Under the pieces are notes generated by a model. The model ran no database searches. It was not told the DNA's origin and worked only from the letters and a program-made list of their open reading frames with translations. From the IMG/VR virus record IMGVR_UViG_3300029265_000706, positions 1 to 38,266 of that record: DNA of 38,266 nt. One strand, given 5' to 3'. Origin of the DNA: a virus. A program made the position numbers and the translations under genes. Positions 12,221 through 33,548 of the stretch are shown here, in pieces. The number at the start of each line of letters is the position of its first letter. Within the stretch, counting starts at the first letter, position 1.

Positions 12221-12233
12221 TTTTAACTTTTAT

Positions 12234-12470: not shown

Positions 12471-13412
12471 TTAAAAAGTCGCAGAACATAGGTGAGTTTT
12501 ATGGAAAGCACACCACTTACAATTATCATTTATTGTAGCAGGCATTTCTTTATCATTAAACCCATCTCTAGTGAAGCAATTATCTAAGAATATTTTAAGT
12601 GAAGTTGTTGCTCTATTAACTGATGTTTTTCCTGAAGGTGGTCTAAATTGTTGAACTCGTTTAATTACAAAATCCTCTGATTTCCATAATTTACGTTTAA
12701 CAATGAAGAATTCAATTTCAATATTATCTAAAGGGATATTATACTGCTCAGCAAAGAATTTTTTATACAAAACTAACTGATGTTGTTTTGATTTATCTTT
12801 CTTAGCATTAGCATTCCACCCACTGGTTGATGTTTTTATATCGATTATAATGAATTTATTTGTGTCTTCATGGTATAGCACGACATCAAGGAAGCCCATG
12901 TATTTAACGCGAGGTAAACGTGGATTAGGCGCTAATACAATTGGTACCTCGCAACCTACTAATGACCATCCACGTTTTGAAAAATATTTGTTTCTATTTT
13001 TCTTTACATAAGAAATAATTTCAATCCCATCATTGTAAAACTCTCGAATTTGTTTAGGTGAACTAAAGTGAATGTTCTTATTTGCTTTATAAGCAATAGC
13101 ATAACACACTCTTAATCGTTCTTCAAAATCTTCCTCTAAATTGATACGATCAGCAGCTGCACCACTTTCATTATACATCACATCAAGGTACATTTGGAGA
13201 GTTTCATGTACTGCCGTGCCAAAAGTCATATGAATGCTTTGTTCTCTTACCTTATGTCCATCTCTATAATTCAACGCCCACTTTTTAGGGCATTGTGTAT
13301 ACATTGATAGTTGGGAATAAGAAATATTTTTTTCAAATGAAAAATTAACAGGTACTGGAGGGTTATCTTGTATTTCCCTTACTATTTGAGGTAATTTATT
13401 TTTCTTTCCCAC
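12471..13412 (-). CDS. PD-(D/E)XK nuclease, Cas4/RecB-like, probable Fe-S protein
   Basis: 313 residues. The nuclease core is visible as GTAVHE (65-70), GFLD ending in Asp176, and IIDIKTSTSG with Asp191 and Lys193, followed by QHQLVLYKKFF, the Q-x-x-x-Y motif of RecB/Cas4-type enzymes. Cys41 near the N-terminus and Cys298, Cys301 and Cys309 at the C-terminus match the four-cysteine arrangement of Cas4/AddB [4Fe-4S] clusters. It probably degrades or processes DNA ends in phage recombination or host DNA breakdown. It has its own promoter at 13437-13468. No cas1 or cas2 is nearby. Confidence 0.8.
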   Translation of the reverse strand: MGKKNKLPQIVREIQDNPPVPVNFSFEKNISYSQLSMYTQCPKKWALNYRDGHKVREQSIHMTFGTAVHETLQMYLDVMYNESGAAADRINLEEDFEERLRVCYAIAYKANKNIHFSSPKQIREFYNDGIEIISYVKKNRNKYFSKRGWSLVGCEVPIVLAPNPRLPRVKYMGFLDVVLYHEDTNKFIIIDIKTSTSGWNANAKKDKSKQHQLVLYKKFFAEQYNIPLDNIEIEFFIVKRKLWKSEDFVIKRVQQFRPPSGKTSVNRATTSLKIFLDNCFTRDGFNDKEMPATINDNCKWCAFHKTHLCSATF

Positions 13413-13436
13413 AATTTTTTTATTTTACTTATTCCG

Positions 13437-13468
13437 TAAATATACGAATAATGTTTGGGGGAACCAAA
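13437..13468 (-). promoter_or_regulatory. Bacteroidetes-type promoter
   Basis: Read leftward: TTTGG (13468-13464), a 19-bp spacer ending TTCG, TATATTTA (13444-13437). It drives the PD-(D/E)XK nuclease gene starting at 13412. Confidence 0.8.
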
Positions 13469-13485
13469 TTAGGTTATTTTTTCCA

Positions 13486-14466
13486 TTATAACTTTTCAAC
13501 CTCAGAATATTCATATATCCATTTTTTATCTAATGGGTTATTCATATCAAAATGCTTAATTAATTTGTTATCTTTAAATATTTTAATAATATTTGGTTTT
13601 GTATCTGATATTTTTACCCAATTCCACCCATTAGGTGGGATTTGAATATTAGTAGTTTTATCATCTATTATTAAGTCATAATGTACTAAATCTTTTTGGT
13701 TATTCCAAGCAAAGAATTTAAATTCTTCATTATGGAGATGAATAGTTGAATATTCAACTTCTCCGGCATGGTCTAGGTTTAAAGTAAATGATGTAGCCAA
13801 ATCAGTATCATATTGTAAAGGTATAATATAACAATTTAAGTTTTTCCAAATATTGTCATATAATATACATTCTGTAACTGGAAGTTTTCCTTGATTAAAA
13901 TAAGTTCTATATTGATTTATTAAGTTTTGTTCTTGATAGTTGAGATAATCATTTGAAATTTTAGTTAAATTTAAACTTTGAAATGTCCATGTACAATTAA
14001 TATCTCCATTTTGGTTTAAGAATCTAGGTAATGTATAACATACAGCATCATGGTTTTTTAAATTTGAAAATGCATTATCCCAAACTTCTCTATTTTTAAT
14101 AATAGTATCATGTTCACACATATGGATAACTTCTTCTCCTAGAGATTTTAAATAAGATAAAGCACCTAAATGCATTCTTAAAACAGGAAGAACATGACTA
14201 GCTAAAGAAGTATAATCTCTAAAAATAAAATTATAATTTTCAGTTTGATAATGATGCCAATATTTTATATCAGGGTCAAATAATATTGGGTTTTCCTTGT
14301 CATATAAAAAATAATCACATCTATCAATAACATCCTGTGGAGTTGAAGAGTGGGTTATTAAACAAATCCTATAATTAAACTTTTTAAGAGAAATTATTAA
14401 ATCCCTTAATCGGTCAATTTGATTTAATTCAGGAGTGTAAGCTGATATTAGAACTATTTCTTTCAT
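13486..14466 (-). CDS. Putative glycosyltransferase-like protein
   Basis: 326 residues. The N-terminus (EIVLISAYTPELNQIDRL, then FNYRICLITHSSTP) forms a Rossmann-like start, and EEVIHMCEHDTII near residue 115 resembles the DxD turn of GT-A enzymes. The C-terminal 90 residues are beta-rich and may be a separate domain. Its ATG overlaps the stop of the GNAT gene by 4 bp, placing it in the amino-sugar operon. No family-defining motif is strong, so the role is inferred mainly from context. Confidence 0.5.
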   Translation of the reverse strand: MKEIVLISAYTPELNQIDRLRDLIISLKKFNYRICLITHSSTPQDVIDRCDYFLYDKENPILFDPDIKYWHHYQTENYNFIFRDYTSLASHVLPVLRMHLGALSYLKSLGEEVIHMCEHDTIIKNREVWDNAFSNLKNHDAVCYTLPRFLNQNGDINCTWTFQSLNLTKISNDYLNYQEQNLINQYRTYFNQGKLPVTECILYDNIWKNLNCYIIPLQYDTDLATSFTLNLDHAGEVEYSTIHLHNEEFKFFAWNNQKDLVHYDLIIDDKTTNIQIPPNGWNWVKISDTKPNIIKIFKDNKLIKHFDMNNPLDKKWIYEYSEVEKL

Positions 14467-15038
14467 TTAGAGTTTTTAGGTTGATAAGAAACATTGCATA
14501 TTCCTTTATAATTTTTTATTCTTCCCAGTTCTAACCATTCTTCTTTTAAGATACCTAAAACAATACTATTTAAATATTCCCCACATTTGTGGATACATTT
14601 CCGTTTTAACCCTTCTTTAATATAACCAACCCATAAAGCTGATTTTAAGCTGGCTAAATTATTTTCTAATACCTCAGTATCTATACGATTCATGTTAAGT
14701 ACTTCAAACCCAAAATCAACCCCTGCTTCTAATACAGGTTTTGAATAACCATAACCTCTATGTTGTTCAAATATATCATGAGACGAGTCATATTTTCTAT
14801 TTACCCAATCTATATTTTGAATTTTATATAAACCTACAATTTCTTTATTAGATTTAATAGCTTTTAAAATTAGGGTTTTTTGAGGGTTTAAAGTTTCAAA
14901 CCATTTTTCCTGATCTGTTAGGTTAACAAATGAGATATTATGGGTGCCAAACCAACTTTCATTCTTTAAATCTCGAAGTAAAGAAAGATCTTCTTTTGAA
15001 ATTTTAACTAAACGGATACCATTTTTATGAATATACAT
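14463..15038 (-). CDS. GNAT N-acetyltransferase
   Basis: 191 residues with the RimJ/RimL-like GNAT layout: an N-terminal VKISKEDLSLLRDLKNE segment, IVGLYKIQNIDW, then the acetyl-CoA binding stretch QHRGYGYSKPVLEAGVDFGF (about 115-134) and a late VLENNLASLKSALWVGY helix. It sits 1 bp from a sugar aminotransferase, the common pairing in making N-acetylated 4-amino-4-deoxy sugars. Acetylation of such a nucleotide sugar is the most likely role. Protein acetylation is an alternative. Confidence 0.75.
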   Translation of the reverse strand: MYIHKNGIRLVKISKEDLSLLRDLKNESWFGTHNISFVNLTDQEKWFETLNPQKTLILKAIKSNKEIVGLYKIQNIDWVNRKYDSSHDIFEQHRGYGYSKPVLEAGVDFGFEVLNMNRIDTEVLENNLASLKSALWVGYIKEGLKRKCIHKCGEYLNSIVLGILKEEWLELGRIKNYKGICNVSYQPKNSK

Positions 15039-15039
15039 C

Positions 15040-16194
15040 TTACCAACCTTTTTTAATACAATCTACAATGTATTCTCTTTGTTCAGGAGTAACCCACCAA
15101 CCAACAGGAATTGAAACTATTTTATCTATAGTTTTATCTAAAGTAGGTAAAGGTGCTCTAAATTCTCTTACGGTTGAATGTTTATCATTTCTTTCATGTA
15201 CTTGAGAAACTACAATATTACACTTTTCCATATGTTTATAAAAACCATCTCTATCATCTACTAACATAGAATAAATCCAAAATGATGAATCAAATCCCTT
15301 TTCACGTTTTAATAATGTTATTCCGGTGGTGTTTTGGAGATGTTTATCATAGTAAGCTGCATTTTCTTTATGTTTAGATATTAACCTTTCAGCGTGTTTT
15401 AAATTTTCAATTCCTACAGTTGCACTTACATCATTCATGTGGAATTTGTAACCCCATTCTGAAATGTCAGCTTCACATCTAAAATCTTTCTTATTTCCAT
15501 CTCTATCAATCCCATACCATCTTGCTAATTTACCTCTTCTATATAATTCTTGATGTGGGGCAATTAATAAACCTCCATCAATAGCTGTAATATGCTTAAT
15601 TGCTTGGAATGAATACATAGTTAAATTACCATGATTCCCAATTTTTTTACCTTTATATTCAGAACCAAAAGAATGAGCTCCATCTTCAATAACTGCAGGT
15701 TTAAAACCATAAAGTTCTTCTGCTTGTTTTTGGATATCTTTGATTTTATCTAAATCATTTGGATAACCCCCCCAATGGACTAACATAATTGCTTTTGTTT
15801 TTGGAGTTATTTTACGAGCTAAATCATCTAAATCCATGTTTAGAGTTTCTGGGTCGATATCCACCCATTTAATTTTTAAACCATTAGCTAGAATAGGCCA
15901 ATTTGAGGCTGTGCAAGTCATAGCTGTAGCTAATACTTCATCACCATCTTCAATTCCAGGCCAATTATTGTGTGGTCTTTTTAATAAATGAAGGGCTAAA
16001 TGTAAAGATGAAGTTCCAGCATTAGTGGTAAAAGCATAATCATGATTAAAATACTTTTTAATGTTATTTTCAAATTCTTCTACTTTAGGGCCTTGTCCTA
16101 TATAACCACTATTAAGAACATTTGAAACTTCATTAGCGGCTGTATCAGCCATAAAAACTTTGAATAGTTGAATCTTTTCCATATTTATTTCCAT
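15040..16194 (-). CDS. DegT/DnrJ/EryC1/StrS sugar aminotransferase
   Basis: 384 residues, full length for this PLP-dependent family. NAGTSSLHLAL (58-68) binds the phosphate of PLP, IEDGAHSFGS holds the ring Asp171, and MYSFQAIKHITAIDGG places the Schiff-base Lys200. It converts a keto nucleotide sugar to an amino sugar using glutamate. The acetyltransferase follows at once, and an SDR epimerase lies in the same module. The first ATG (16194) overlaps the upstream stop by 10 bp. A second ATG at 16182 gives MEKIQLFKVF and is also plausible. Confidence 0.85.
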   Translation of the reverse strand: MEINMEKIQLFKVFMADTAANEVSNVLNSGYIGQGPKVEEFENNIKKYFNHDYAFTTNAGTSSLHLALHLLKRPHNNWPGIEDGDEVLATAMTCTASNWPILANGLKIKWVDIDPETLNMDLDDLARKITPKTKAIMLVHWGGYPNDLDKIKDIQKQAEELYGFKPAVIEDGAHSFGSEYKGKKIGNHGNLTMYSFQAIKHITAIDGGLLIAPHQELYRRGKLARWYGIDRDGNKKDFRCEADISEWGYKFHMNDVSATVGIENLKHAERLISKHKENAAYYDKHLQNTTGITLLKREKGFDSSFWIYSMLVDDRDGFYKHMEKCNIVVSQVHERNDKHSTVREFRAPLPTLDKTIDKIVSIPVGWWVTPEQREYIVDCIKKGW

Positions 16195-18807: not shown

Positions 18808-20427
18808 TTAATACATTGGATCTGATGGTGAAGTTTCTGATTTTGGATAATCAACTACAACACATTCCGTAAGTAAAATTGTTCCTGCTACTGAAGCTGC
18901 ATTTTCTAATGCTGTTTTTGTTACTTTAGTTGGATCTAAAATACCTGCTTTTTTCATATTAACAACTTTTTCGGTTTTTAGATTATAACCAGCCCAAACA
19001 CCTTCATCATTACCTAACAATTGATACTTACCAATCATTTGTGCATCTGTAGATGTATAACCAGCGTTTGTTAGAATTTGTTCAAATGGTTTACCACAAG
19101 CTTCATATACAATTTGAGAACCTATACTAGCCTTAGTAATAGCTTCACGTGCATATAATAATGCAGCACCTCCACCAGGAACAATACCACCTTCTAATGC
19201 AGCTTTAGTAGCATGTAAAGCATCATCAACTCTATCTTTCTTCTCACCCATTTCTACTTCAGTGTGACCACCTACATGGATAATAGAAACACCACCTACC
19301 ATTTTAGCTAAACGATTTTGCAGTTGTTCTGTAATGAATGGAGTTTCGGATTGGTTTAATTGAGTTTGTAATTCACTAACTCTTTGGTTAATAGCTACTT
19401 CATCACCTTTCCCATCAACAATAGTTGTTTCTTCTTTAGAAATCGTAACTGTTCTAGCTTCTCCAAACCAATCATAAGAGAATTTATCAAGCTTCATTCC
19501 TTTATCTTTATCAAATACAGTTCCACCTGTTAAAGTTGCAATGTCTTCAAGAATTAATTTTCTTCTATCTCCAAAATCTGGTGCTTTAACTGCTGCTACC
19601 TTTAGAATACCTCTTGCTTTATTAACAATTAAAGTTGCAAGTGCTTCACTATCAATATCTTCAGCAATAATTAGTAAAGATTTATTCTTATTAGAAACAT
19701 TTTCTAAAATTGGGAGTAATTCTTTAACAGTTGTAAATTTATGATCTGCTATTAAAATGTATGGATCTTCCAAAGTACAAGTCATACTATTATTATCAGT
19801 TACAAAAAAGTGGGATTTATAACCTCTACCAAATTGCATACCTTCTACAGTTTCAAGATAAGTTTCACCTGATTTACTTTCTTCAATGTGTACTACACCA
19901 TCACGTCCTACTTTTTCAATTGCTGTTGAAATCAATTTACCTACCTCAACATCATTGTTAGCTGAGATTGTGGCAATTTGTTCTAATTGGTCTTCATTAG
20001 AAATTTCCTGTGAAATGTTTTCTCTAAGGAAAGTTATTACTTCATTTACAGCTAAATCAATATCACGTTTAATTTCTACAGCATTTTCACCATTATTGAG
20101 GTGTTTTAAACCAGCTTTAACTAATTCTCGAGCTAATAGAGTGGAAGTAGTTGTTCCATCACCAGCCTTTTCAGCTGTCTGTAATGCTGCTTCTTTCACC
20201 ATTTGAACCCCTAAATTTTGAGTTAAATCTTCTACCTCAATGTGTTTAGCTACAGTAACACCATCTTTTGTGTGGATAGGTTTACCTGGTCTATCTGTAC
20301 TTGTTGTATCAATTAATACATTTCTACCATTAGGTCCTAAGGTACATACAACGGCATCTGCTAACACATTGATACCCTCCATTAACTCTGCACGGGATTG
20401 AGTCCCAAATCTTACTTGTTTTTTCAT
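18808..20427 (-). CDS. groL: Chaperonin GroEL (complete)
   Basis: 539 residues, essentially full length for a bacterial GroEL (548 in E. coli). TLGPNGRNVLID and the ATP-site GDGTTTSTLLA (89-99) are intact, as are the catalytic Asp in RVDDALHATKAAL and IVPGGGAALL. The apical and intermediate domains are complete. The C-terminus ends SPSDPMY and lacks the usual Gly-Gly-Met tail that sits in the ring cavity. It is encoded right after groES, so the phage carries a complete pair. It probably folds phage proteins such as the capsid protein late in infection. Confidence 0.95.
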   Translation of the reverse strand: MKKQVRFGTQSRAELMEGINVLADAVVCTLGPNGRNVLIDTTSTDRPGKPIHTKDGVTVAKHIEVEDLTQNLGVQMVKEAALQTAEKAGDGTTTSTLLARELVKAGLKHLNNGENAVEIKRDIDLAVNEVITFLRENISQEISNEDQLEQIATISANNDVEVGKLISTAIEKVGRDGVVHIEESKSGETYLETVEGMQFGRGYKSHFFVTDNNSMTCTLEDPYILIADHKFTTVKELLPILENVSNKNKSLLIIAEDIDSEALATLIVNKARGILKVAAVKAPDFGDRRKLILEDIATLTGGTVFDKDKGMKLDKFSYDWFGEARTVTISKEETTIVDGKGDEVAINQRVSELQTQLNQSETPFITEQLQNRLAKMVGGVSIIHVGGHTEVEMGEKKDRVDDALHATKAALEGGIVPGGGAALLYAREAITKASIGSQIVYEACGKPFEQILTNAGYTSTDAQMIGKYQLLGNDEGVWAGYNLKTEKVVNMKKAGILDPTKVTKTALENAASVAGTILLTECVVVDYPKSETSPSDPMY

Positions 20428-21157: not shown

Positions 21158-21577
21158 TTATTTTATTTTAATTGATTTTGGTTTTTTAGATTCCGCAATT
21201 GGAATAAATAAATGAAGTAAACCATCCTTCATTTCTGCTTCTAATTGTTCAAGTTCGAACTTAGCTGCTACTTTATAACCTAAGTTAAAAGATCTTTTAG
21301 CTAATCCTTTATAGATATAGTTACTGTAATCTTCTATTTCTTCGGTTGATTTATCATAGATAATTTTTAAAAGATCACCATCAATTTCTAATTTGATGTC
21401 CTTTTTAGTTAACCCAGTACAAGCTATGTCAAAGTGAAGCCCGTCTTTGTCGTAATAAATGTCTAGTGGGTGGGGTTGTTTGTTTTCAAACGTGGTTGGT
21501 TGAAAAGCTCCGTCTGCCTTGAATAGGTTACGGAATAAAATGTCGAATTTCGACTGTTCATTAATTAATGTACTCAT
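21158..21577 (-). CDS. Small heat-shock protein, Hsp20/alpha-crystallin
   Basis: 139 residues, the usual size for bacterial Hsp20. The alpha-crystallin domain spans about residues 30-125, with LDIYYDKDGLHFDIACTGL at its start, DLLKIIYDKS, and the closing AEMKDGLLHLFIPI, which replaces the usual A-x-x-x-n-G-v-L. A short C-terminal IPI-type tail follows. It holds unfolded proteins for refolding and lies next to groES-groEL. Hsp20 genes are known in marine T4-like phages. The leader carries a small hairpin and one copy of a 12-bp inverted repeat. Confidence 0.85.
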   Translation of the reverse strand: MSTLINEQSKFDILFRNLFKADGAFQPTTFENKQPHPLDIYYDKDGLHFDIACTGLTKKDIKLEIDGDLLKIIYDKSTEEIEDYSNYIYKGLAKRSFNLGYKVAAKFELEQLEAEMKDGLLHLFIPIAESKKPKSIKIK

Positions 21578-22482: not shown

Positions 22483-23418
22483 TTAATCTAAATTAAAGAA
22501 CATATCTTTGTAAGGGTTGAGGGATAATGACCAATCCAGATCAGAGTAAAAACCCTCTAATTTATTTAATAAGATAGATTCAAATATTTTCTTTCTATCA
22601 GCATATTGCTCTATAAACTTTTCTATCTTAGGAGGAAAATCAAAATCAAGAAAAGCAATCGCATCTATTTGGTAGGGGTTTGATTTTAAATAAATCCATT
22701 TTACTTTATCACCTTGTGTAATTGCATTATGATCCTTACTTAACCCCCAAAATTTAAGTAAATCATTATATCTAATAACTGCTCTAACTGCTGCTGGCGC
22801 ACCTTTTGCTACTATGGTAAACATCTCTCCAGCTCTAGCTTTACGTTCAGTATACTTATTAAGAGTTTTCACTGAAGTTGGATTACCTAATTGAGTTAAT
22901 GGGATACTACCATCTAATATTTGAATTTTAAATTCTTTAACACGAGCATCAATGTTTGATTGTTTTTCTCCTTTTAACACATCAACTAGTACTTTATGAA
23001 AAAATTTACCTAGTACAGGTGGAAAATTTGCTTTCTTAAACTCAAGTCCCTTTACATCAAGTGTCTCTTTTTTAATACCTTCTTGCTTAGTAATCCACTG
23101 AGCATATCTTCTAGTAGCTCTAAAATAAGCAGCACGGATAACTGCTTCAGTCTTCATTTCTAACCTATGTGCACCTTTTGCATTAAAGCAATTTGTAGCT
23201 AAATCACTATAAGAATCAGTAATAATATCTTGATATTTTAAAGCGATATCTTCTAACTTATCATCTTTTTCTTCACTAGGCATTTCCTCAAAATTAGGAT
23301 ATAAATGTCTTAATAGTGGTTCTGCGTGTACATAGATGGAATCTGTGTCTGAATATGCTACATAATTTATGTCGGTTGCATCGCATATCCACCATGGTAC
23401 ATCTTGTAAATGTTTCAT
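22483..23418 (-). CDS. 43B: DNA polymerase, C-terminal part (gp43B-like)
   Basis: 311 residues carrying polymerase motif C, YSDTDSIYV (22-30), with the two catalytic aspartates, followed by the palm end and the thumb (KGLEFKKANFPPVLGKF, then KTLNKYTERKARAGEMF). The C-terminus ends KDMFFNLD, which resembles the clamp-binding tail of T4 gp43. It lacks the exonuclease and motifs A and B, which are on the gene just upstream. The two products must associate to make an active enzyme. A real split gene is more likely than an error because 43 bp with an A/T-rich leader separate the two. Confidence 0.85.
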   Translation of the reverse strand: MKHLQDVPWWICDATDINYVAYSDTDSIYVHAEPLLRHLYPNFEEMPSEEKDDKLEDIALKYQDIITDSYSDLATNCFNAKGAHRLEMKTEAVIRAAYFRATRRYAQWITKQEGIKKETLDVKGLEFKKANFPPVLGKFFHKVLVDVLKGEKQSNIDARVKEFKIQILDGSIPLTQLGNPTSVKTLNKYTERKARAGEMFTIVAKGAPAAVRAVIRYNDLLKFWGLSKDHNAITQGDKVKWIYLKSNPYQIDAIAFLDFDFPPKIEKFIEQYADRKKIFESILLNKLEGFYSDLDWSLSLNPYKDMFFNLD

Positions 23419-23461
23419 AATTCTATATTTTCTTTATTTATTTTACCCAGTCCTGTTTATA

Positions 23462-25150
23462 CTATAGTTCATCTTCACCTCTAAAAACCTTATTTAAATG
23501 GCGATTAGTAGTTAAAGCACTCTCTTGAATAATTCTTTGTCCACTAAGCGTTGTAGCTTCACTTAGAATTACAGAACCATACCTAAAGCTTGGTAAAGCT
23601 GTTGCGCCATAGAGTGAATTTAATAGAATCTTCATTGTGTATTGTTTCATATGAAATGCATCTCCCGATTCTTTGTCTCCAGATTTATATGCTGTTTTCA
23701 TTTTATTTTTATACATTACACGCTCATCAAACCATTTTTTTAGTATGGTAGATAATACTGATTCTCTATTAGTATCAAACATAACCCCATTTGCTGATAT
23801 GGACATTTTCATATCTTGGATTAAATTAATTAATTCTCCAATTTTAATTTTAGTACGTTTTCGTTTTACATTCTCAATGATGAGTTCTTCTTCAGGATCC
23901 TTACGTTTTAAATCATTTAACCCTAAACGATTATTCCTATCATCAGCATCTATAATCCTACCAATCATAGTTTCTTTACCAATATTAATAGTCATAATAA
24001 TTGATGGGTATAGAGAAGTTAAATCTTCATCAAATACATAATTATAAATACCTGCTTTTGGGCAAAATAAATAACCACCAGCATAATTCTCTTTAGTGAA
24101 AGGGTTACGTTCCTTAGCAGGTGGTACAATACCTTTACTTAATAGATAAGCTGAAATTGCTCCATCTTGGGTTTTAGTATTAGCATATACTTCACTATAG
24201 TTATGTTTTCCTTTATGGGCTAGATTTTTAACAAGTGCTAAATAATCTAACTTTTCATCTAGTTTTTTTAAGATTTCTACATCTACAAAGTTATATTGGA
24301 TAAATTTGTGAATATCATCTTCAAATAATTTATCAAGACTACCTTCATACTCAATTTTATTCATCCCTACATACTTTTCCCCAATTGCATCTAATTTAAA
24401 TGATGGTTCATCAGCCCAACTAAACTTTTTATGTAAACGCATATAATCTAAAGACTCAACCCCTGCTATTTGGATAAATTGATCTTTATACCAAGGGGTT
24501 TCACGAACATAACCTATAGGGGATAAATAACGAGCTACATCTTCACCTAAAACATTACACATTCTATAGTAAAGATAAGGAATATCAAAATAATCACTAT
24601 TCCACCCTACTATAATATCAGGATCAATTTCTCTAAACTTTTCAATAAATTTAAGTAATAATTCATCTTCAGTTTTACAAGGAATAATTTCTTTATTTCT
24701 TGCTTTAGTATGTTTTAATTGACCTTTAGGATCTAAAATAACAATACCCCATAAATCAACTTGTTTATCATACCAAGCTATTGATGTAACTTTTTTAGGA
24801 GCTGATTTGATATATTCTTCGGTAAGGGCTTCACCCATTTCAATCTCAATATCAAAAAATACTTCTCTGTGTGTTTTAGAGGGTTCATCATTGATTCCAT
24901 ACTTATCCACTAAGAACTTTTGGTGGATTGGCATATCATGAAAATGGACTTTATTGTTATCTGGAGTCCAGTTTGGGGTTTTATATAATGATTCACCATT
25001 TAATCCTTTGTGGGTGGATTTAGAATCATCACACTCTATGTAGGCTTGATTTGTCCATTCAATTTTTTCATAACCTTCATCTGACCAAAGGTGGATTAAA
25101 TGATTGTTTCCTCTTAACCTTCTTGAAAATACTTTTTTATACATTTGCAA
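23462..25150 (-). CDS. 43A: DNA polymerase, N-terminal part (gp43A-like)
   Basis: 562 residues of a family-B polymerase. The 3'-5' exonuclease has Exo I FFDIEIE (98-104), Exo II VGWNSDYFDIP (181-191) and Exo III YNFVDVEIL (286-294). Motif A is DLTSLYPSII (376-385) and motif B KILLNSLYGA (507-516). The frame ends after LNKVFRGEDEL, where T4 gp43 would run into motif C. Motif C begins the next ORF. This half alone should keep proofreading but not polymerise. The start at 25150 follows an intergenic stem-loop. Confidence 0.9.
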   Translation of the reverse strand: MQMYKKVFSRRLRGNNHLIHLWSDEGYEKIEWTNQAYIECDDSKSTHKGLNGESLYKTPNWTPDNNKVHFHDMPIHQKFLVDKYGINDEPSKTHREVFFDIEIEMGEALTEEYIKSAPKKVTSIAWYDKQVDLWGIVILDPKGQLKHTKARNKEIIPCKTEDELLLKFIEKFREIDPDIIVGWNSDYFDIPYLYYRMCNVLGEDVARYLSPIGYVRETPWYKDQFIQIAGVESLDYMRLHKKFSWADEPSFKLDAIGEKYVGMNKIEYEGSLDKLFEDDIHKFIQYNFVDVEILKKLDEKLDYLALVKNLAHKGKHNYSEVYANTKTQDGAISAYLLSKGIVPPAKERNPFTKENYAGGYLFCPKAGIYNYVFDEDLTSLYPSIIMTINIGKETMIGRIIDADDRNNRLGLNDLKRKDPEEELIIENVKRKRTKIKIGELINLIQDMKMSISANGVMFDTNRESVLSTILKKWFDERVMYKNKMKTAYKSGDKESGDAFHMKQYTMKILLNSLYGATALPSFRYGSVILSEATTLSGQRIIQESALTTNRHLNKVFRGEDEL

Positions 25151-25226: not shown

Positions 25227-25793
25227 TTATTGTATAATAGCGAACTTTGCTACTAATACACAATCAACACTTGATACTAAATCATTCACGGTGATGTTAG
25301 GTTCAACAAAAACATTAGTTTCCGTTGGATAGAAATATTCCTGATTAATCCGTTGACTAACTGCAAATTCAAAAGCTGCTCCACCGGATACACTAGGGAT
25401 ACTATAGAAACCTTGAACTGCTCCTGCAAGTACAGTACCACCATCATCTGCTACACTCCGAGGGTTACATATATAAGACCTAAAATTCTCATTTTTAATT
25501 CCTATTGACATACGACCTCCTACACCTAAATCTACTTCTTCTTTAAATACTATATATAACTCTTGGATTAATGAATTTGCAGGTATTGCCCTTGGAAGTT
25601 CAAGTTCATACCTTCCCGTGGGTGTAGGAATTGTAAATGGTGATGTAGTTGTAACGCTATTGAACTCACTGGTTAGAGTTGTTAAATAATTACTAGTAGC
25701 ATTACTTCTTGTAGTAATATCCCTATTTGTATTGTCACCATTGTTAAACCCAAATTTGGCTGTTGCATCCGTTAGATTGAATGTTGCTCGCAT
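25227..25793 (-). CDS. Tandem paralog D, probable beta-rich virion protein
   Basis: 188 residues and the most diverged of four adjacent paralogs. It starts MRATFNLTDATAKFGFNNGD, with the shared F(N/S)L-DATA-FGFN-GDN-NRDI block over residues 4-27. The rest is predicted beta-sandwich with alternating Thr/Ser/Val strands. There is no signal peptide, membrane segment or catalytic motif. By composition and tandem duplication it is likely a virion surface or fibre-associated protein, but this is an inference. Ala/Gly-rich paralogs B and C resemble each other more than this one. Confidence 0.6.
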   Translation of the reverse strand: MRATFNLTDATAKFGFNNGDNTNRDITTRSNATSNYLTTLTSEFNSVTTTSPFTIPTPTGRYELELPRAIPANSLIQELYIVFKEEVDLGVGGRMSIGIKNENFRSYICNPRSVADDGGTVLAGAVQGFYSIPSVSGGAAFEFAVSQRINQEYFYPTETNVFVEPNITVNDLVSSVDCVLVAKFAIIQ

Positions 25794-25820
25794 AGTTTTG
25801 TTTTTTTAATTAAGAGATTT

Positions 25821-26366
25821 TTATATTGTGGAGTAATTTACTACGAATATAGCATCAACACTTGCTGCTAATGCATTCACCCCAACTATGGTTTGTATGA
25901 AAAGTGTTTGATCAGCTGTGAAGTATCTAACTCCACCAGGAGTAAATGTAAATGCTGCTCCATTTTGACTAGGAGCTTGGTTGATACCTTGGACGGATCC
26001 TTCATCTACTCCACCACCTGCATTATCTACTAGTGCTAATGGACATATTTCAGCTCCACCACTAGTTGAACCAACAGTTAATGATAAAGTACCTCCTGCT
26101 CCTAAATCTATGTCTTCTTTGAATAGTACTGATATATTAGTTATTACTCCATTTGCAGGTGAAGCTGCTGGAAATGTAAAATTTGTTGTAGCTACTCCTA
26201 CAGGAATCGTAAATGCTGTTGATGTTACCTTTGAAGCAGCAGAATTTAGAGTTGCTAAATAAGCTGCAGTAGCATCTGCTCTTGTAATAATATCCCTATT
26301 TGGATTGTCACCACTGTTAAACCCAAATGAGGCTGTTGCATTTGTTAGATTGAATGTTTGTTGCAT
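25821..26366 (-). CDS. Tandem paralog C, probable beta-rich virion protein
   Basis: 181 residues. It begins MQQTFNLTNATASFGFNSGD and keeps the block GDNPNRDIITR. It continues with FTIPVGVATTNFTF, SVLFKEDIDLGAGGTLSLTV and a C-terminal ADQTLFIQTIVGVNALAASV strand pair shared with paralog B. Thr/Ala/Gly-rich beta composition is typical of virion decoration or fibre proteins. It follows a terminator at 26396-26434, so it may have its own promoter close to 26390, but no TTTGG/TATATTTA box is visible there. Confidence 0.6.
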   Translation of the reverse strand: MQQTFNLTNATASFGFNSGDNPNRDIITRADATAAYLATLNSAASKVTSTAFTIPVGVATTNFTFPAASPANGVITNISVLFKEDIDLGAGGTLSLTVGSTSGGAEICPLALVDNAGGGVDEGSVQGINQAPSQNGAAFTFTPGGVRYFTADQTLFIQTIVGVNALAASVDAIFVVNYSTI

Positions 26367-26395
26367 GTTTTTGTTTATTGTTGTTTAATGATTAA

Positions 26396-26434
26396 TTATA
26401 AAAAGGGGTAAATCAGTATATCCAACTTACCCCT
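26396..26434 (-). terminator. Rho-independent terminator
   Basis: The stem AGGGGTAA/TTACCCCT (26434-26427 and 26411-26404) with a 15-nt loop is followed on the minus strand by TTTTTAT. It lies after the stop of paralog B (26458). Confidence 0.75.
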
Positions 26435-26457
26435 CTTTGTAGTTCTATTAATGTGTT

Positions 26458-26991
26458 TTATAAAGTAGTGTAACTTACTACTAAAGAACAAGTTGCTGCT
26501 CCAGCCATTGCATTTACTCCTACTACTGATCTTATAAATAGAGAAGTCCCATTAACGAAATAAACTGGTGTTCCTGTTTCAAATACAAATACTGCTCCAC
26601 CTGTTGCGGCTATTGAAGAAATACCTGTAGCTGCTCCTGTAGATATTGAACCTCCTGCTGCTCCTGTTAAAACTGATGCACAAAGTTCTGCACCACCTGA
26701 AGCTGTACCAACTGCAAGATTTAAAGTACCTCCGGCACCAAAATCGACTGCTGATCTAAATATTACTTTAAGATCGGTTACTACTGAATTTGCAGGAACT
26801 ATATTTAAAAATTGAGTATCTACTGTTGCAACTCCTGCAGGGATTGTAAATGCTATTTTTGATGCTTTTGCTGTTTGTCCTAAAAAGGTTGCTGTAGCAT
26901 CTTGTCTTGTAATGATATCCCTATTTGGGTTATCACCGCTGTTAAACCCAAAGGAGGCTGTTGCGTTTGTTAAATTGAATGATGGTTGCAT
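26458..26991 (-). CDS. Tandem paralog B, probable beta-rich virion protein
   Basis: 177 residues. It starts MQPSFNLTNATASFGFNSGD and is nearly identical to paralog C over the first 30 residues, then diverges: FTIPAGVATVDTQF, a GAGGTLNLAVGTASGGAELC segment and a C-terminal GTSLFIRSVVGVNAMAG. The GC-rich Ala/Gly codons (mostly GCT and GGT) differ from the AT-rich neighbours and suit high expression. It is followed by a clear terminator. A virion role is inferred, not shown. Confidence 0.6.
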   Translation of the reverse strand: MQPSFNLTNATASFGFNSGDNPNRDIITRQDATATFLGQTAKASKIAFTIPAGVATVDTQFLNIVPANSVVTDLKVIFRSAVDFGAGGTLNLAVGTASGGAELCASVLTGAAGGSISTGAATGISSIAATGGAVFVFETGTPVYFVNGTSLFIRSVVGVNAMAGAATCSLVVSYTTL

Positions 26992-27028
26992 AATTTTGTT
27001 TTTAATTAATTAAATTATTTATTTGTGT

Positions 27029-27068
27029 ACATTGATACATATTATAAAAGGGTTAAAATTATATATTA
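27029..27068. repeat. Duplicated intergenic segment, copy 1
   Basis: About 40 bp around ATTATAAAAGGGTTAAAATT upstream of paralog B, overlapping the stop of paralog A. It matches 27704-27742 with a few substitutions and contains an ACCCTTTTATAATATG core on the minus strand. It was probably copied with the gene and may hold the late-type promoter. Confidence 0.6.
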
Positions 27069-27665
27069 TATAGTAATGTAATCTACTATAAATGTAACAT
27101 TTACGGGATCTTTTAGGGTTTGGTTATCAAATACTGTTCTTGCAAATAATAATTGATCTGTTTCAAAATATCTAACTGCACCATTTACAAATGTAAAAGA
27201 TTCTGCAGGGTACAAACTACCCTCAAAAGGAAAAGGTGTAACAGCAATACTATCCAAGGATTGCACTGCTCCTGCTACAATATCCCGACCTGCAACGTTG
27301 GATTTTGCGGGTGCACAAATTTCTGCTCCACCTGTAGTTGTACCAATTGAAAAGTTTATATTAGAAGTTATATCAAAACGATTAGGTGGGACTGGGAAGT
27401 TGATTTGTGTTACTTCAGTCCACACTAACGACACACCAGTTATTAATGAACCTGCAGGTATTGGGGTTGACATTGGTGTATCTATGGTTGATTCATCAAA
27501 TGATGGTATGGAGATGACAGTTATTATGGAAGATGGTACGATAGAGTCAAGTGTTGTTACATACTCTGCAGTAGCATTTTTTCTTATAATAATATCCCTA
27601 TTTGGGTTATCACCCCTATTAAAACCAAATGTAGCCGTTGCATCCTCCAAACTAAATCTCCCCAT
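27066..27665 (-). CDS. Tandem paralog A, probable beta-rich virion protein
   Basis: 199 residues, the longest paralog. It starts MGRFSLEDATATFGFNRGD and keeps GDNPNRDIIIRKNATAEY. The body has extra insertions (IPSFDESTIDTPMSTPIP and NRFDITSNINF) before TGGAEICAP and the C-terminal ETDQLLFARTVFDNQ. It is the first of the four in transcription order, and the 27704-27742 repeat lies just upstream. Likely virion-associated by analogy with the other three. No known family was recognised. Confidence 0.6.
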   Translation of the reverse strand: MGRFSLEDATATFGFNRGDNPNRDIIIRKNATAEYVTTLDSIVPSSIITVISIPSFDESTIDTPMSTPIPAGSLITGVSLVWTEVTQINFPVPPNRFDITSNINFSIGTTTGGAEICAPAKSNVAGRDIVAGAVQSLDSIAVTPFPFEGSLYPAESFTFVNGAVRYFETDQLLFARTVFDNQTLKDPVNVTFIVDYITI

Positions 27666-27703: not shown

Positions 27704-27742
27704 ACGTTAATACATACTATAAAAGGGTTGAAATTATATATT
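27704..27742. repeat. Duplicated intergenic segment, copy 2
   Basis: ACTATAAAAGGGTTGAAATT and flanks, upstream of paralog A and overlapping the 3' end of the MazG-like gene. It is the partner of 27029-27068. The shared minus-strand core TTTTATA(A/G)TATGTAT has some likeness to T4-type late promoters (TATAAATA), which is speculative. Confidence 0.6.
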
Positions 27743-28372
27743 TTTTAATTCTTCTTCTCTAAAGAATTTGGTTAAATCAGGGCGGAAGTAATTAATATTT
27801 TTCATAACCTTCATATCACGCGTTCTATAGACAATATAATATCCCCCAACCTTCGAATAGTGACATGGTTCCTTTTGCTCTGCAGAGCGCCTCTCAACGG
27901 TTTTTTGTGCTTCTTCTTCGTTAACACAAGCCTTAGACATATTTGACGCTTGTACTTCTTGATATGCGGGCCATACTTTTTCTTTAAGACCATGTAACAT
28001 AGCTCCGTTACCAAGTGAAACGTAGGTAATGTCACATAGAGCATCAAGAACTTCAATAATGTCTCCGGCTTCACATGCAGCCTTATATTCTTCAAGTTCT
28101 TCAAGGATGAAATTATAAACAAACATCCATTCTTTTTTTTCTGGAATCGTAGATTCATAGTTATTTGGTTTACCCATAGTAGAATTAAATTCCTCTACTT
28201 CACTTACAAAAGGAACATATTTGCTTAAAATCATACTCTCAATACGATTAGATATAACATCTGCCCATTCCATTTGGGGAATTATATTTTCTCTATCTCT
28301 ATATTGTACCTCATTTAACAATTCAATACTATTTATCAATTCCTGTTGAATTAACTCTTTTACTTTCTTCAT
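27734..28372 (-). CDS. MazG-like nucleotide pyrophosphatase
   Basis: 212 residues. The helical core has EELEEYKAA (91-99) and IIEVLDALCDITYV (105-118), the EExxE...ExxD metal-binding pattern of the MazG/PRA-PH fold, which hydrolyses NTPs or related nucleotides to monophosphates. Extra N-terminal helices and a C-terminal part (YYIVYRTRDMKV) surround it. It lies 13 bp downstream of folE. It may shape the nucleotide pool or alter host ppGpp signalling, as proposed for phage MazG. Confidence 0.75.
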   Translation of the reverse strand: MKKVKELIQQELINSIELLNEVQYRDRENIIPQMEWADVISNRIESMILSKYVPFVSEVEEFNSTMGKPNNYESTIPEKKEWMFVYNFILEELEEYKAACEAGDIIEVLDALCDITYVSLGNGAMLHGLKEKVWPAYQEVQASNMSKACVNEEEAQKTVERRSAEQKEPCHYSKVGGYYIVYRTRDMKVMKNINYFRPDLTKFFREEELKNI

Positions 28373-28385: not shown

Positions 28386-29081
28386 TTATATTTGGTGTCC
28401 CCCATTATTGATTTTTATGCTATCAAAGAATTCTTTTCTTGATTGATTTGTATTATCTCTAAATGCTTTACATGCTTTAGTAGTAACCATGGAAGCACCA
28501 TGATGTTTAACACCTCTACAACTTACACATGAATGTGTTGCAACTATTGTAACAATTACACCTAAATTACCTTCAGTGATTTTATCTACTGCATTGTGGA
28601 TAGCTGATGTTAGTTGTTCTTGAATAGCACCTCTACGACCAAATAATTCTACGATTCTATTAAGTTTAGATAACCCAATTACTTGACCTGATTCTCCTGC
28701 AATATAACCAATATGAACTACACCCATAATAGTTTGGTGATGGTGTGAACACATAGATGTAAGTGGGATATTTCTTTCAATTACGATTCCATCATAACCA
28801 TCACTTGGGAATGAAGTAATAGGAGACATTGCTGTATAACGTCCTGCCCATAAATCATTTACATAAGCTTTAGCTACACGTCTTGGTGTCTCCATAGAAT
28901 TTGGATCATTTCTCCAATCACATTTTAAAGCATCTAAAAAATCACCATATGCTTTTTCAGCATCGTTAATCATTTTATCTTTATTAGATTGTTCTAATGG
29001 GAAGCCTTCAGCAACTCCATTCGCAAAACCTGTCTGTACCACTTCTAATTCTTCGTGGATTTTTCTACGTTTATTTTCCAT
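28386..29081 (-). CDS. folE: GTP cyclohydrolase I (FolE)
   Basis: 231 residues, full length. The core shows NIPLTSMCSHHHQTIMG with zinc ligands Cys111 and His114, VIGLSKLNRIVELFGRR (134-150), QEQLT, and THSCVSCRGV with His183 and the third zinc ligand Cys185. It converts GTP to 7,8-dihydroneopterin triphosphate, the first step to preQ0. QueD, QueE and QueC genes lie upstream on the same strand, so deazaguanine synthesis rather than folate is the likely purpose. It has its own promoter at 29101-29132. Confidence 0.92.
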   Translation of the reverse strand: MENKRRKIHEELEVVQTGFANGVAEGFPLEQSNKDKMINDAEKAYGDFLDALKCDWRNDPNSMETPRRVAKAYVNDLWAGRYTAMSPITSFPSDGYDGIVIERNIPLTSMCSHHHQTIMGVVHIGYIAGESGQVIGLSKLNRIVELFGRRGAIQEQLTSAIHNAVDKITEGNLGVIVTIVATHSCVSCRGVKHHGASMVTTKACKAFRDNTNQSRKEFFDSIKINNGGHQI

Positions 29082-29100: not shown

Positions 29101-29132
29101 ATAATATACGAACTCTATTTATAGAGCCCAAA
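29101..29132 (-). promoter_or_regulatory. Bacteroidetes-type promoter
   Basis: Read leftward: TTTGG (29132-29128), a 19-bp spacer ending TTCG, TATATTAT (29108-29101). Its -33 side overlaps the last codons of hpt. It drives folE. Confidence 0.75.
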
Positions 29133-29622
29133 TTGAAGGTAAATTTCTATTATGTCCATTTTCATCATCCATTCCAGCTCCGATCACCCACTCATCTTTA
29201 ATAGTAAAAGCATGATATGATTGTTGTTTTGGTGTTGGGGAGGTAGATCTTGTAATTAAAGATGCTATTGAAATCGAAGCTGGGTGTTTTACTTCTAAAT
29301 ATTCTATAACAGCAGAAATCGTATTTCCAGTATCGTAAATATCATCTACAATGTAAACATGCTTACCCTTTATGGGTGTTTCCAAATCCTTAGTGATTTG
29401 TATATCGCCTTGTTTGCGCTTTGTATACGATTTAACGCGCATAAAATCACACTCCACCACAATCGGCATAGCACGAACTAAATCGCTGTAAAACGCAAAG
29501 CAACCGTTAAGTAAACCAACCATTATTACAGGTGTTTTATCACCTCTATGAGCATCTGCTATTTGTTTACCAATTATTTTAGTTTGGAAATTAATAGCCT
29601 TAGCCGAAATTAATTCTCTCAT
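29119..29622 (-). CDS. hpt: Hypoxanthine-guanine phosphoribosyltransferase
   Basis: 167 residues, typical for bacterial Hpt. The PRPP-binding motif is VYIVDDIYDTGNT (89-101), and the N-terminal GLLNGCFAFYSDLVRAM and the flexible-loop segment MRVKSYTKRKQGD are in place. WVIGAGMDDE near the end matches the purine-binding loop. It salvages guanine or hypoxanthine to GMP or IMP with PRPP. DpdA-type exchange releases free guanine, so recycling it to GMP would fit this cluster. Confidence 0.88.
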   Translation of the reverse strand: MRELISAKAINFQTKIIGKQIADAHRGDKTPVIMVGLLNGCFAFYSDLVRAMPIVVECDFMRVKSYTKRKQGDIQITKDLETPIKGKHVYIVDDIYDTGNTISAVIEYLEVKHPASISIASLITRSTSPTPKQQSYHAFTIKDEWVIGAGMDDENGHNRNLPSIWAL

Positions 29623-29792: not shown

Positions 29793-30569
29793 TTACACAA
29801 ATCTCTTTTTATCATAAGCAATGATGTGATCTCGCCCTGTCATACAATAACCCCTCTCAGCACACATTTCAAATACAAGGGGGTACATTTTGATTAATTC
29901 ATCTCTAGAATCCCCACCAGGCATTATAAATGTTTTATCTTTAGGAATATCCATTTTAACTCTAAATTCTTCAATTTCAGCTAAACCACTTTCAGTTCCA
30001 TCCCATACTGGTTTGTAATGATAATCAGAATGGTAATCTAATGTTTGACGGATAGCCTGAAAATTAAGTCTAAGTTTATTATGTTGTTTAATAATCTTCT
30101 CATCTGTAATCTTACCTCCAGGAGTTGGTACACCTAATACTGGAACTGAATTGCTAAATTTAGGGCTAAGTGAGATAAGACCTATTGGAAAATCAGTTTC
30201 AATGAAATGAGATCCTTCAGTTTCAATTGTAATTAATATACCTCTCTCATTTGCAAAGTTGGTTAATTCATTTACAACTGTAGGGTGGAGTGTAGGACTT
30301 CCTCCAGTTAACATCATCTCTTTAATATGAGGGTTTTCATCATACATTTTAATAATATCGTTAAATGTAAAACCCCCTCTTTCGGGATGTATTGATGTTT
30401 GCCAAGAATCACACCATCCACCTTCACCGAAATAACATCTATGGGTACACCCTGTAGTTCTTACTGCTATAGTTGGACGTCCAAAACGGCTACCCTCTGA
30501 TTGTACACACCTGTATAATTCAAGTATGGGGAGTACCTTGTTGTAATCTTCTATTCTTTTTATTGCCAT
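29793..30569 (-). CDS. queE: QueE-like 7-carboxy-7-deazaguanine synthase (radical SAM)
   Basis: 258 residues. LYRCVQSEGSRFGRPTIAVR matches the QueE N-terminus (SxQGEG-type, then GxPxxFVR). The cluster site is CTHRCYFGEGGWCDS with Cys41, Cys45 and Cys53 (C-x3-C-x7-C), wider than the usual CX3CX2C but with the conserved Asp after the last Cys. MLTGGSPTLHP is the GGEP-like SAM motif. It rearranges CPH4 to CDG, the third preQ0 step. The queD gene lies 13 bp upstream. Confidence 0.85.
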   Translation of the reverse strand: MAIKRIEDYNKVLPILELYRCVQSEGSRFGRPTIAVRTTGCTHRCYFGEGGWCDSWQTSIHPERGGFTFNDIIKMYDENPHIKEMMLTGGSPTLHPTVVNELTNFANERGILITIETEGSHFIETDFPIGLISLSPKFSNSVPVLGVPTPGGKITDEKIIKQHNKLRLNFQAIRQTLDYHSDYHYKPVWDGTESGLAEIEEFRVKMDIPKDKTFIMPGGDSRDELIKMYPLVFEMCAERGYCMTGRDHIIAYDKKRFV

Positions 30570-30582: not shown

Positions 30583-31050
30583 TTAATCTTCTACATAATA
30601 TGCAGCATTTTTACCATGTTCCATAAACTTTACCTTAGTAACCCTAACCCTACCACCAGTCTCTTCTAATACGAATGGGTTAAGCTTATTAAAAATGAAT
30701 TCTGAGAATTTTTCGGCACCTGTAGCTTCAATAACTCTTAACTGGATTACACCTAAATCATTCATTGTTTTCCAACCTCCCATTCCAGGATCATCTTCAG
30801 CAACAATAACTGTGTGGTCAAACATATAGTCCATCCATTCTTTAGGTGATTTACCATCGATTAAAGTTTTAGCACGTTTCATACCTCCAAAATCCCAAAC
30901 CCAATTTCGATCATCTAATTCACCTTCAAAATATACCTTAAATGAAATACCATAACCATGTAGAAATCTACAGTGTGTATCTTCTGCTTTCCATTGACGA
31001 AACACTGTACTAAACCCGTCAAATATTTTACTTGATTGAAATTTACCCAT
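30583..31050 (-). CDS. queD: QueD-like 6-carboxytetrahydropterin synthase
   Basis: 155 residues. The segment FRQWKAEDTHCRFLHGYGIS contains the catalytic-type Cys and the HG(Y/H) motif, and WVWDFGGMKRAK and DHTVIVAEDDPG complete the family layout. Compared with E. coli QueD the first zinc histidine and the second His of HGH are not in the usual places. An FRQWRA/SHCxFLHGY form of the family exists, so it is likely active. It makes CPH4 from dihydroneopterin triphosphate. It overlaps the thioredoxin gene by 8 bp. Confidence 0.82.
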   Translation of the reverse strand: MGKFQSSKIFDGFSTVFRQWKAEDTHCRFLHGYGISFKVYFEGELDDRNWVWDFGGMKRAKTLIDGKSPKEWMDYMFDHTVIVAEDDPGMGGWKTMNDLGVIQLRVIEATGAEKFSEFIFNKLNPFVLEETGGRVRVTKVKFMEHGKNAAYYVED

Positions 31051-31300
31051 TATACCAGTCTAAAATTTGTTGTTGTGATTGAACTCCAATTTTACGGCTA
31101 AGTTCTTTTCCATCTAAATCAGTTAAAATTAAAGTTGGGATGCTTTTAATATCATATTGTTGGGTTATTGATGCATCATAGTCACAATTAACCTTTTTAA
31201 CTTTTACCCCATATTTTTCTAACCCATCCATAATAGGTCCTAATTGTTTACAAGGTCCACACCACGGTGCGGAGAAGTAGATAATTCCTTTCTTATTCAT
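31043..31300 (-). CDS. Thioredoxin-like protein
   Basis: 85 residues, about the size of T4 thioredoxin NrdC (87 aa). WCGPCK at 13-18 is the classical thioredoxin active site and differs from the CVYC of T4. The cis-proline segment SIPTLIL (53-59) is present. It could reduce ribonucleotide reductase or, given its place between queC and queD, keep the deazaguanine enzymes reduced. Cytoplasmic, no signal peptide. Confidence 0.88.
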   Translation of the reverse strand: MNKKGIIYFSAPWCGPCKQLGPIMDGLEKYGVKVKKVNCDYDASITQQYDIKSIPTLILTDLDGKELSRKIGVQSQQQILDWYNG

Positions 31301-31482: not shown

Positions 31483-32328
31483 TTATTTTACATTTAATAG
31501 TTCTTTTTCGTATTCCGATAGTAATTGTTCAACATAAACTTTTGCTACGTCATAACATACAACACCTGATTCATCATAATATTGTACTGGATCTAGACGA
31601 CCTAATGCTATAAATGCTTCAATACGTTCTACAGAAGATGCTGATTTATAATCACTAAACCCTTCAGGTGATGGTTTATATGATGTGAGTGTTCTAGCAT
31701 ACACTTCATCAAAATCAATATCTAATTTATCACATAAAATTTCACCATCTTGTAGTATCGTAAACTTATTACCTTCTAAATATGGTGTAAAATAACTTAC
31801 CCTCTCAGCATCCCAATTGCCTTCTCTAAATGCTTTATCATCTGCATCTCTAAATTCTTGTCTACAATCAGGATAAATACTATGATCACCGCTATGAATT
31901 CCAAGAGCAATTACTGTATTATCTCCTGTGCGATTAGCAACTGATAATGCTACGGCTTGCGATATAGAAGCAAATATTTTATTACGATTAGGAACTACTG
32001 TTGCTTTCATATTATCTTCAGCATAGTGTCCTTCAGGCACTTCATCTCCCCCTTCTACAAGAGCAGAATCAAGTAAATTTACTAAACCATCTAATTTAAT
32101 AACTTGGTAATTGATATTATATTTATGTCTTTTTAGATAGTCTACTAAAGCTTTTGCTCTTCTTAATTCAACTTTATGCTTTTGACCATAGTCAAATGAT
32201 AAAGCTGTTACTGTTTCAAATTTTTCAAGACATTTAAGTAATAACGTTGAGCTATCTAGTCCTCCTGAAAGTGAAACTACTGCGTGTTTAGGACTTTTAA
32301 AGTCCTGCTGATTAAATTCTAGTTGCAT
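31483..32328 (-). CDS. queC: QueC-like 7-cyano-7-deazaguanine synthase without zinc cysteines
   Basis: 281 residues. The PP-loop VSLSGGLDSST (18-28), FDYGQKH (45-51), VPNRN (112-116) and GIHSGDHSIYPDCRQEF (143-159) are all QueC signatures. In place of the four zinc cysteines seen in known QueC proteins it has Ser216 (LTSYK) and Asp226, Ser229 and Ser232 just before VERIEAF. The fold must be stabilised another way, or activity is altered. It should convert CDG plus ammonia and ATP to preQ0, the last step before DNA insertion. Confidence 0.85.
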   Translation of the reverse strand: MQLEFNQQDFKSPKHAVVSLSGGLDSSTLLLKCLEKFETVTALSFDYGQKHKVELRRAKALVDYLKRHKYNINYQVIKLDGLVNLLDSALVEGGDEVPEGHYAEDNMKATVVPNRNKIFASISQAVALSVANRTGDNTVIALGIHSGDHSIYPDCRQEFRDADDKAFREGNWDAERVSYFTPYLEGNKFTILQDGEILCDKLDIDFDEVYARTLTSYKPSPEGFSDYKSASSVERIEAFIALGRLDPVQYYDESGVVCYDVAKVYVEQLLSEYEKELLNVK

Positions 32329-32762: not shown

Positions 32763-33548
32763 TTATATATTATTTATTTGTTTAAATTTTGTTAAATTAT
32801 AATCTAATAAATTATAATCAATTTTATTACTTTCCATGTAGAAAAAATCATTCATATTTGCTTTTGGTTTTTGTGTTAAACCCGTATTTGAATAAGTAGT
32901 ATTTTCTAATGTAGCCATTATTGGGTTTGAGGTATCTATTGATTCAATACACTTAATTCCGCGGTACCAACCAAATTCTTGTGGTACTGAACACCCCAAT
33001 AAATGTATTCTGTCATTTTCATTCAATGCTCCTTGATTATATAAAGTAGAAATAACAGATATACGCCCTAACGCTTTACCTAAATCTTTATTAGGGTGAG
33101 GACATATATCATTATAATATGAAGCACCATAAGAATATGCTATTTTATTATAACCTAATCTTTTATAAATTTTAGTACATTCGAAGGCTTCATGGAGAGT
33201 TTTTGCTTGAACTACTGCTACTTTTTCAACTCCTTTAGGAAATTTATAATTAATCCAAATCTCAGCATTACAAACTGATTCTACTAAGTCTTCCCAAACA
33301 TCAGGGACAATAAATTCATTAGGTTTAATTTCTTCTATCCAATGTAATAAGCGTTCATGGTTATAGGCTTCACCCAATTCATGTAAAGAATTATCCATTA
33401 TGATATAACGCCCTTCAGCTTTAGCTTTAAGAAAATAATCTAAATAAGCAGGTTCCTCATCTAATAGGTGAGGAAGGATGAATTCATAATCGTTAAATTT
33501 TCTACTATCTTCTAGTAGGCATAGAGGTACTTCGTGATTTACTTTCAT
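32763..33548 (-). CDS. dpdA: DpdA-like DNA guanine transglycosylase (TGT fold)
   Basis: 261 residues. YIIMDNSLHELGE (48-60) places Asp52 where TGT enzymes carry the general-base Asp, and FIVPDVWED resembles the barrel strand that follows. RIHLLGCSVPQEFGWY (180-195) and CIESIDTSNPI (200-210) match the TGT LGx and nucleophile segments, with Asp205 as the likely nucleophile. It would replace guanine in DNA by preQ0. A tRNA TGT is less likely because it is much shorter (TGT is about 370 aa) and lacks the C-terminal zinc cysteines. It shares its transcript with queC and thyX. Confidence 0.72.
   Translation of the reverse strand: MKVNHEVPLCLLEDSRKFNDYEFILPHLLDEEPAYLDYFLKAKAEGRYIIMDNSLHELGEAYNHERLLHWIEEIKPNEFIVPDVWEDLVESVCNAEIWINYKFPKGVEKVAVVQAKTLHEAFECTKIYKRLGYNKIAYSYGASYYNDICPHPNKDLGKALGRISVISTLYNQGALNENDRIHLLGCSVPQEFGWYRGIKCIESIDTSNPIMATLENTTYSNTGLTQKPKANMNDFFYMESNKIDYNLLDYNLTKFKQINNI

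Follow-up and report, generated by a model that had tools for sequence, protein, structure and literature searches.

The queC locus and its altered zinc positions

The window, the whole 38,266 nt stretch of marine phage DNA analysed here, contains a deazaguanine gene cluster in which a queC-like gene lies among genes for QueD, QueE, FolE and several other enzymes (Table 1). The product of the queC-like gene matches PF06508, the Pfam QueC family, with 130.3 bits against a gathering cut-off of 22, which places it in the superfamily. With the NCBI QueC equivalog model TIGR00364 it scores 129.5 bits, below the cut-off of 150.3, and this alignment ends at residue 218, where the zinc region starts.

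In canonical QueC, four cysteines around a C-terminal loop bind zinc, and the loop bears an essential tyrosine. The original prediction was that Ser216, Asp226, Ser229 and Ser232 (SDSS) take the place of these cysteines, and this is borne out. The four residues are exactly as described, and in a family profile alignment the zinc cysteines of the QueC structures 2PG3 (E 2.7e-52) and 3BL5 fall on them. All 34 zinc-type sisters have cysteine at the positions equivalent to S216, S229 and S232, and every canonical bacterial QueC with a complete zinc region among the genome scan matches has all four (CCCC). As the canonical zinc motif C(x)8CxxCxxC is missing, the window protein is filed outside canonical QueC, though it descends from it. 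The SGGLDS, LTSYK and VERIEAF stretches are intact, as first claimed, and the PP-loop, the YxQxHxxE, VPxRN and YPDC motifs and the essential tyrosine beside the first zinc position are present. In a 2026 survey of PF06508, replacement of Y35, R99, Y131 or Y189 of E. coli QueC by alanine is reported to abolish function (PMC13329287).

Table 1. Features of the queC region, in window coordinates
Feature	Position	Strand	Basis
MazG-like nucleotide pyrophosphohydrolase	27734..28372	-	PF01503, phrog_671; recurrent neighbour
FolE, GTP cyclohydrolase I	28386..29081	-	PF01227; Cys/His/Cys zinc ligands kept in alignment
Phosphoribosyltransferase-like gene	29119..29622	-	PF00156
QueE, radical SAM CDG synthase	29793..30569	-	phrog_2076
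QueD, altered zinc site (FRQW..THC...HGY)	30583..31050	-	PF01242
Thioredoxin-like gene (CGPC), between queC and queD	31043..31300	-	PF00085; 118/172 clade A loci
queC-like gene, clade A (SDSS) QueC, 281 aa	31483..32328	-	PF06508
C-terminal extension, approximately residues 245-281, predicted hairpin and helix	31486..31596	-	Tail lengths, AF2 model
Ser232, replaces zinc Cys 4	31633..31635	-	Ser 142/144 clade A
Ser229, replaces zinc Cys 3	31642..31644	-	Ser 143/144 clade A
Asp226, replaces zinc Cys 2	31651..31653	-	Asp 142/144 clade A; aligned with 2PG3 Cys
Tyr217, counterpart of essential E. coli Tyr189	31678..31680	-	144/144 conserved
Ser216 (TCA), replaces zinc Cys 1	31681..31683	-	Ser 144/144 clade A
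PP-loop SGGLDS, residues 21-26	32251..32268	-	SGGxDS 144/144 clade A
DpdA-like DNA guanine transglycosylase (putative)	32763..33548	-	Identity to immuto DpdA and CP220 protein

The altered site is followed by an unusually long tail. The median length after the site is 18 aa in zinc-type QueC (n=98), 40 in the window protein's own clade (clade A), 43 in its bacterial members and 51 in a second cysteine-less group, clade B; some zinc-type tails are also long, reaching 45 residues. An AF2 model of the window QueC (mean pLDDT 89.4) has strands at 249-251 and 254-256 and a helix at 258-279 in the tail, and matches B. subtilis QueC (3bl5_A) with a VIA Z of 19.9 over 186 residues.

The neighbouring QueD is also remodelled. 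Two of its three zinc histidines are replaced, the first within the FRQW stretch and another by the change of HGH to HGY, and an extra histidine directly precedes the catalytic cysteine. The catalytic cysteine, the Asp-His pair and the glutamate are invariant in the alignment, and the AF2 model (pLDDT 95.6) has the QueD fold and matches E. coli QueD. HGY QueD is a widespread type in phages and bacteria.

Elsewhere in the window, a T4-like family B DNA polymerase (phrog_262) is split over two ORFs at 22483-25150, with the N-terminal part at 23462-25150 and the C-terminal part at 22483-23418. Four tandem paralogous ORFs at 25227-27665 share the N-terminal motif (S/N)LxDATAxFGFNxGDNxNRDI, and the one that was scanned had no PHROG match. 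Phage genes for GroEL (18808-20427) and Hsp20 (21158-21577) and a block of glycosyltransferase, nucleotide-sugar epimerase and aminotransferase genes (5275-16194) were also found.

SDSS QueC in phages and bacteria

The SDSS pattern is not peculiar to the window phage but characterises a large clade of phages and one group of bacteria. The nearest 80 viral contigs show it, as do Flavobacterium phage immuto and additional contigs of bacterial assemblies, and when more distant clade A members served as seeds for another scan, 79/79 had it. Combined, the two scans gave 158 viral sequences with SDSS and one incomplete sequence with SD. Other metagenomic phage QueCs with the same substitutions, which it had been suggested to look for, are thus abundant, and what was first reported as a property of one protein is a QueC lineage in phages and bacteria that lacks the zinc site.

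Among the 144 distinct clade A sequences, the four substituted residues are near-invariant (Table 1), the exceptions to SDSS being the two most divergent members, L092 (S,S,S,D) and L177 (S,S,T,D). YxQxHxxE and VPxRN are conserved in 144/144 and YPDC in 143/144. Ser216 is encoded by TCN in 112 of these sequences and by AGY in 32, so that both serine codon families are used. This conservation across 144 distinct relatives excludes decay, a frameshift or a sequencing or assembly error, and indicates that the altered site is under purifying selection. The original view of a zinc-free variant rather than a decaying gene is upheld by the strict conservation, the use of both codon families and the retained catalytic motifs, and it also fits the parallel loss, the intact surrounding pathway and the bacterial genomes described below. 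The zinc-free status itself we infer from the missing ligands.

A four-cysteine site elsewhere in the protein, raised originally as the result that would tell against the prediction, was not found. The only invariant cysteine of clade A is C155, which belongs to YPDC and which normal QueC has too; C199 is conserved in 93%. No cysteine or histidine is conserved in clade A yet absent from the 34 zinc-type sisters compared. Conservation within clade A and the comparison with these sisters together exclude a relocated zinc site.

Across 172 clade A loci, the neighbours include QueD (136), DpdA-like proteins (128), QueE (125), thioredoxin (118) and FolE (88), with QueF (20) and a formyltransferase (16) rarer; the linkage to queD and queE expected of a canonical queC is therefore common. 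The window DpdA-like protein is 37.5% identical to a gene product of immuto annotated as DpdA and 35.8% identical to a protein of Campylobacter phage CP220. It does not reach the Pfam TGT threshold, and a sequence search of the PDB gave no significant match. Complete replacement of guanine was reportedly assigned to a DpdA subfamily in NAR in 2023. Judged from gene content, phage FolE, QueD, QueE and QueC together with the DpdA-like enzyme form a predicted DNA-modification pathway.

The QueC of immuto (YP_010114440) belongs to the same clade as that of the window, is 64% identical to it and has an identical SDSS. Its genome likewise carries FolE, QueE and a DpdA-like gene, but differs in that dpdA is accompanied by QueF and a formyltransferase; the 38-kb window yielded neither. 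In immuto (L233:2995-5921), dpdA, the formyltransferase gene, a thymidylate kinase gene and the QueF gene lie in a row, which suggests that its DNA may contain a formylated preQ1-type base. Cellulophaga phage phiST (L314:5504-9744) encodes an HGY-type QueD together with QueE, FolE and MazG, as well as a DpdA-like protein that is only distantly related (20.8% identity), and no QueC is annotated near its QueD, QueE and FolE genes in this region. The arrangement suggests that the phiST base may be made directly from CDG.

The bacterial group is represented by the isolate Facilibium subflavum (L091) of the Fastidiosibacteraceae. Its SDSS queC adjoins queD and queE on a contig that looks chromosomal, with genes named from sequence as ispE, lolB, glucokinase and rlmE-like nearby. 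Of 51 genomes related to F. subflavum, 13, with F. subflavum itself counted among them, have an SDSS QueC (52-100% identity, all SDSS) and 15 others have CCCC. None of the 13 genomes, some of which are drafts, has a strong PF06508 match other than the SDSS protein; lower-scoring hits fall mostly on short segments within larger PP-loop proteins. All 13 carry TGT and QueF, and 12/13 carry QueA. As the sole strong QueC beside these queuosine genes, the SDSS protein should make preQ0 for tRNA queuosine, which is the simplest reading, although in drafts an overlooked second QueC or preQ0 salvage may exist. The original prediction had counted a Ser/Asp pattern in many bacterial QueCs as evidence against it. 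One bacterial group does share SDSS, but its occurrence there strengthens the functional reading.

A second cysteine-less clade

Clade B consists of Rhizobium phage RHEph06, Pseudomonas phage Iggy, Sphingomonas phage MMDA13 and 35 viral contigs, with A/S, T, D/N and S/T/N at the four zinc positions. The MMDA13 QueC, though cysteine-less, is termed canonical in the paper describing it (PMC7472734). In a QueC tree built solely from the columns preceding the zinc region, clade B groups with CAjan and phi47:1 relatives, and clade A lies among bacterial-type zinc QueCs. A single origin of cysteine-less QueC was rejected (AU test, p = 1.6e-72). Given this and the separate position of clade B, we conclude that the zinc site was lost at least twice. 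The two groups are alike in the loss of four cysteines, the retained catalytic motifs and long tail, and the deazaguanine gene cluster, but they are separate lineages with different replacement residues.

Two CCCC proteins, L222 and L231, nest inside clade B, and a single clade B that leaves them out was rejected (p = 0.00085). Either regain of the zinc site or further losses are possible within the clade. In L222 the tail is short, at 23 residues. In Vibrio phage GR7B (L231:3001-4591), two adjoining genes are annotated as QueC, and the zinc region is shortened in the second.

In counts that ignore shared ancestry, an HGY QueD accompanies the majority of cysteine-less QueCs but few of the zinc type. 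In 11/13 of the bacterial genomes with SDSS QueC, no QueD other than HGY was found; one has HGH and one was unreadable. The coupling is not strict: phi47:1, L179 and L222 combine a CCCC QueC with an HGY QueD, and three clade A loci and the genome G010 combine an SDSS QueC with an HGH QueD. One scenario is that QueC and QueD lost their zinc sites jointly, as a zinc-sparing 7-deazaguanine module that spread among phages whose DNA requires the base in very large quantities, and that one lineage of bacteria, having traded this module with phages, now depends on it for queuosine in tRNA. We regard this as tentative and would not favour it at present. As FolE keeps its zinc ligands, the pathway is not wholly zinc-free.

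Proposed function and known QueC-family systems

The window protein is likely to be a working descendant of QueC that has lost the zinc site, kept the catalytic core and converts CDG via ADG to preQ0; it is very probably still a preQ0 synthase. In this ATP-dependent reaction, CDG would be converted to the amide ADG and then to the nitrile preQ0. A hydrogen-bond network of the Ser, Asp, Ser and Ser residues, with the longer C-terminal hairpin and helix, may stand in for zinc in holding the loop that bears Tyr217. If the loop is held in this way, zinc in QueC would be structural and not catalytic. In phages the product would feed the DpdA-like transglycosylase, which would place a 7-deazaguanine in phage DNA, and in Facilibium-type bacteria it would feed QueF, TGT and QueA for tRNA queuosine. 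The TIGR00364 score below the equivalog cut-off and the draft state of some bacterial genomes count against this reading.

An enzyme that halts at the amide, acting as an ADG synthase that supplies dADG to phage DNA, is an unlikely alternative that has two points in its favour. ADG is QueC's own intermediate according to the 2026 survey (PMC13329287), and some of the closest transglycosylases come from Campylobacter CP220-type phages, in which dG is reported to be wholly replaced by dADG (PMC8306585). However, the QueC of Campylobacter phage CP20, a CP220 relative, is CCCC, so dADG needs no loss of cysteines, and we rejected that loss as its cause. Because preQ0 is the substrate of QueF, the nitrile has to be produced in the 20 clade A loci that carry QueF, and QueF is likewise present in all 13 bacteria relying on SDSS QueC. 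It is a little less probable again that the site still binds zinc or another metal through other residues. D226 could act as a ligand, and clade A conserves C155, C199 and several histidines, but none of these cysteines or histidines distinguishes clade A from its zinc-type sisters, and the different residues of clade B are unlike a shared metal site.

We consider it improbable that the protein has been repurposed for protein deazaguanylation, like Cap9 or QatC, or for decarboxylation of CDG. PF06508 has been repurposed repeatedly, as the survey relates (PMC13329287), and the window model aligns with QatC over residues 12-280 (VIA Z 17.7). Against this, all canonical QueC motifs are kept here, while QatC has lost them according to the same survey (PMC13329287), and the SDSS gene travels with FolE, QueD, QueE and DpdA-like genes, and no second strong QueC accompanies it in the bacteria that have queuosine genes. 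Least credible of all is an inactive or decaying copy with preQ0 supplied by a host QueC. In its favour, the family-defining site lacks each of its four ligands, and some phages do depend on the host pathway (PMC8306585), but near-invariance of both the substituted residues and the catalytic motifs across 144 distinct sequences, and the lack of any other strong QueC in the 13 bacterial genomes, speak strongly against it. The reading of SDSS QueC as a probable preQ0 synthase is thus the one we retain.

The zinc site of QueC, long taken as a hallmark, appears dispensable. In the part of the 2026 survey that could be consulted, the four-cysteine motif is one of two QueC hallmarks, and its loss is described only in functionally different branches of PF06508 (PMC13329287). 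We found no published report of zinc-site loss in QueC in a literature search of partial coverage. Natural QueCs without the motif, arising from at least two losses and relied on by living bacteria, make the question of structural versus catalytic zinc testable, and isolates with a cysteine-less QueC are at hand in immuto, F. subflavum, RHEph06 and Iggy. Functional QueCs will be overlooked where annotation relies on the zinc motif or on the TIGR00364 cut-off.

The other branches of PF06508 differ from the window protein in several respects. The LarE and GMP synthase branches share a related ATP-pyrophosphatase fold without the four-cysteine motif, but have lost the QueC catalytic motifs that it keeps (PMC13329287). 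LarE has a three-cysteine motif and LarB and LarC neighbours, whereas in clade A only C155 and C199 are conserved and the neighbours are FolE, QueD, QueE and DpdA-like genes. QatC lacks YxQxHxxE, VPxRN and YPDC and carries C(x)19CGxCxxRR; the window protein has these motifs and no cysteine at the site. Cap9 is approximately 185 aa long with a CE(x)6CxxCxxCxD motif and a CD-NTase neighbour, and here the protein is 281 aa, the cysteine motif is missing and no CD-NTase was found among the genes identified around queC. With canonical QueC (E. coli, B. subtilis 3BL5 and Erwinia 2PG3) the window protein shares the fold, PP-loop, YxQxHxxE, VPxRN and YPDC motifs, essential loop tyrosine and queD and queE neighbours, and it differs from canonical QueC in the replacement of four zinc cysteines, the longer C-terminal tail and short clade-specific insertions before the site.
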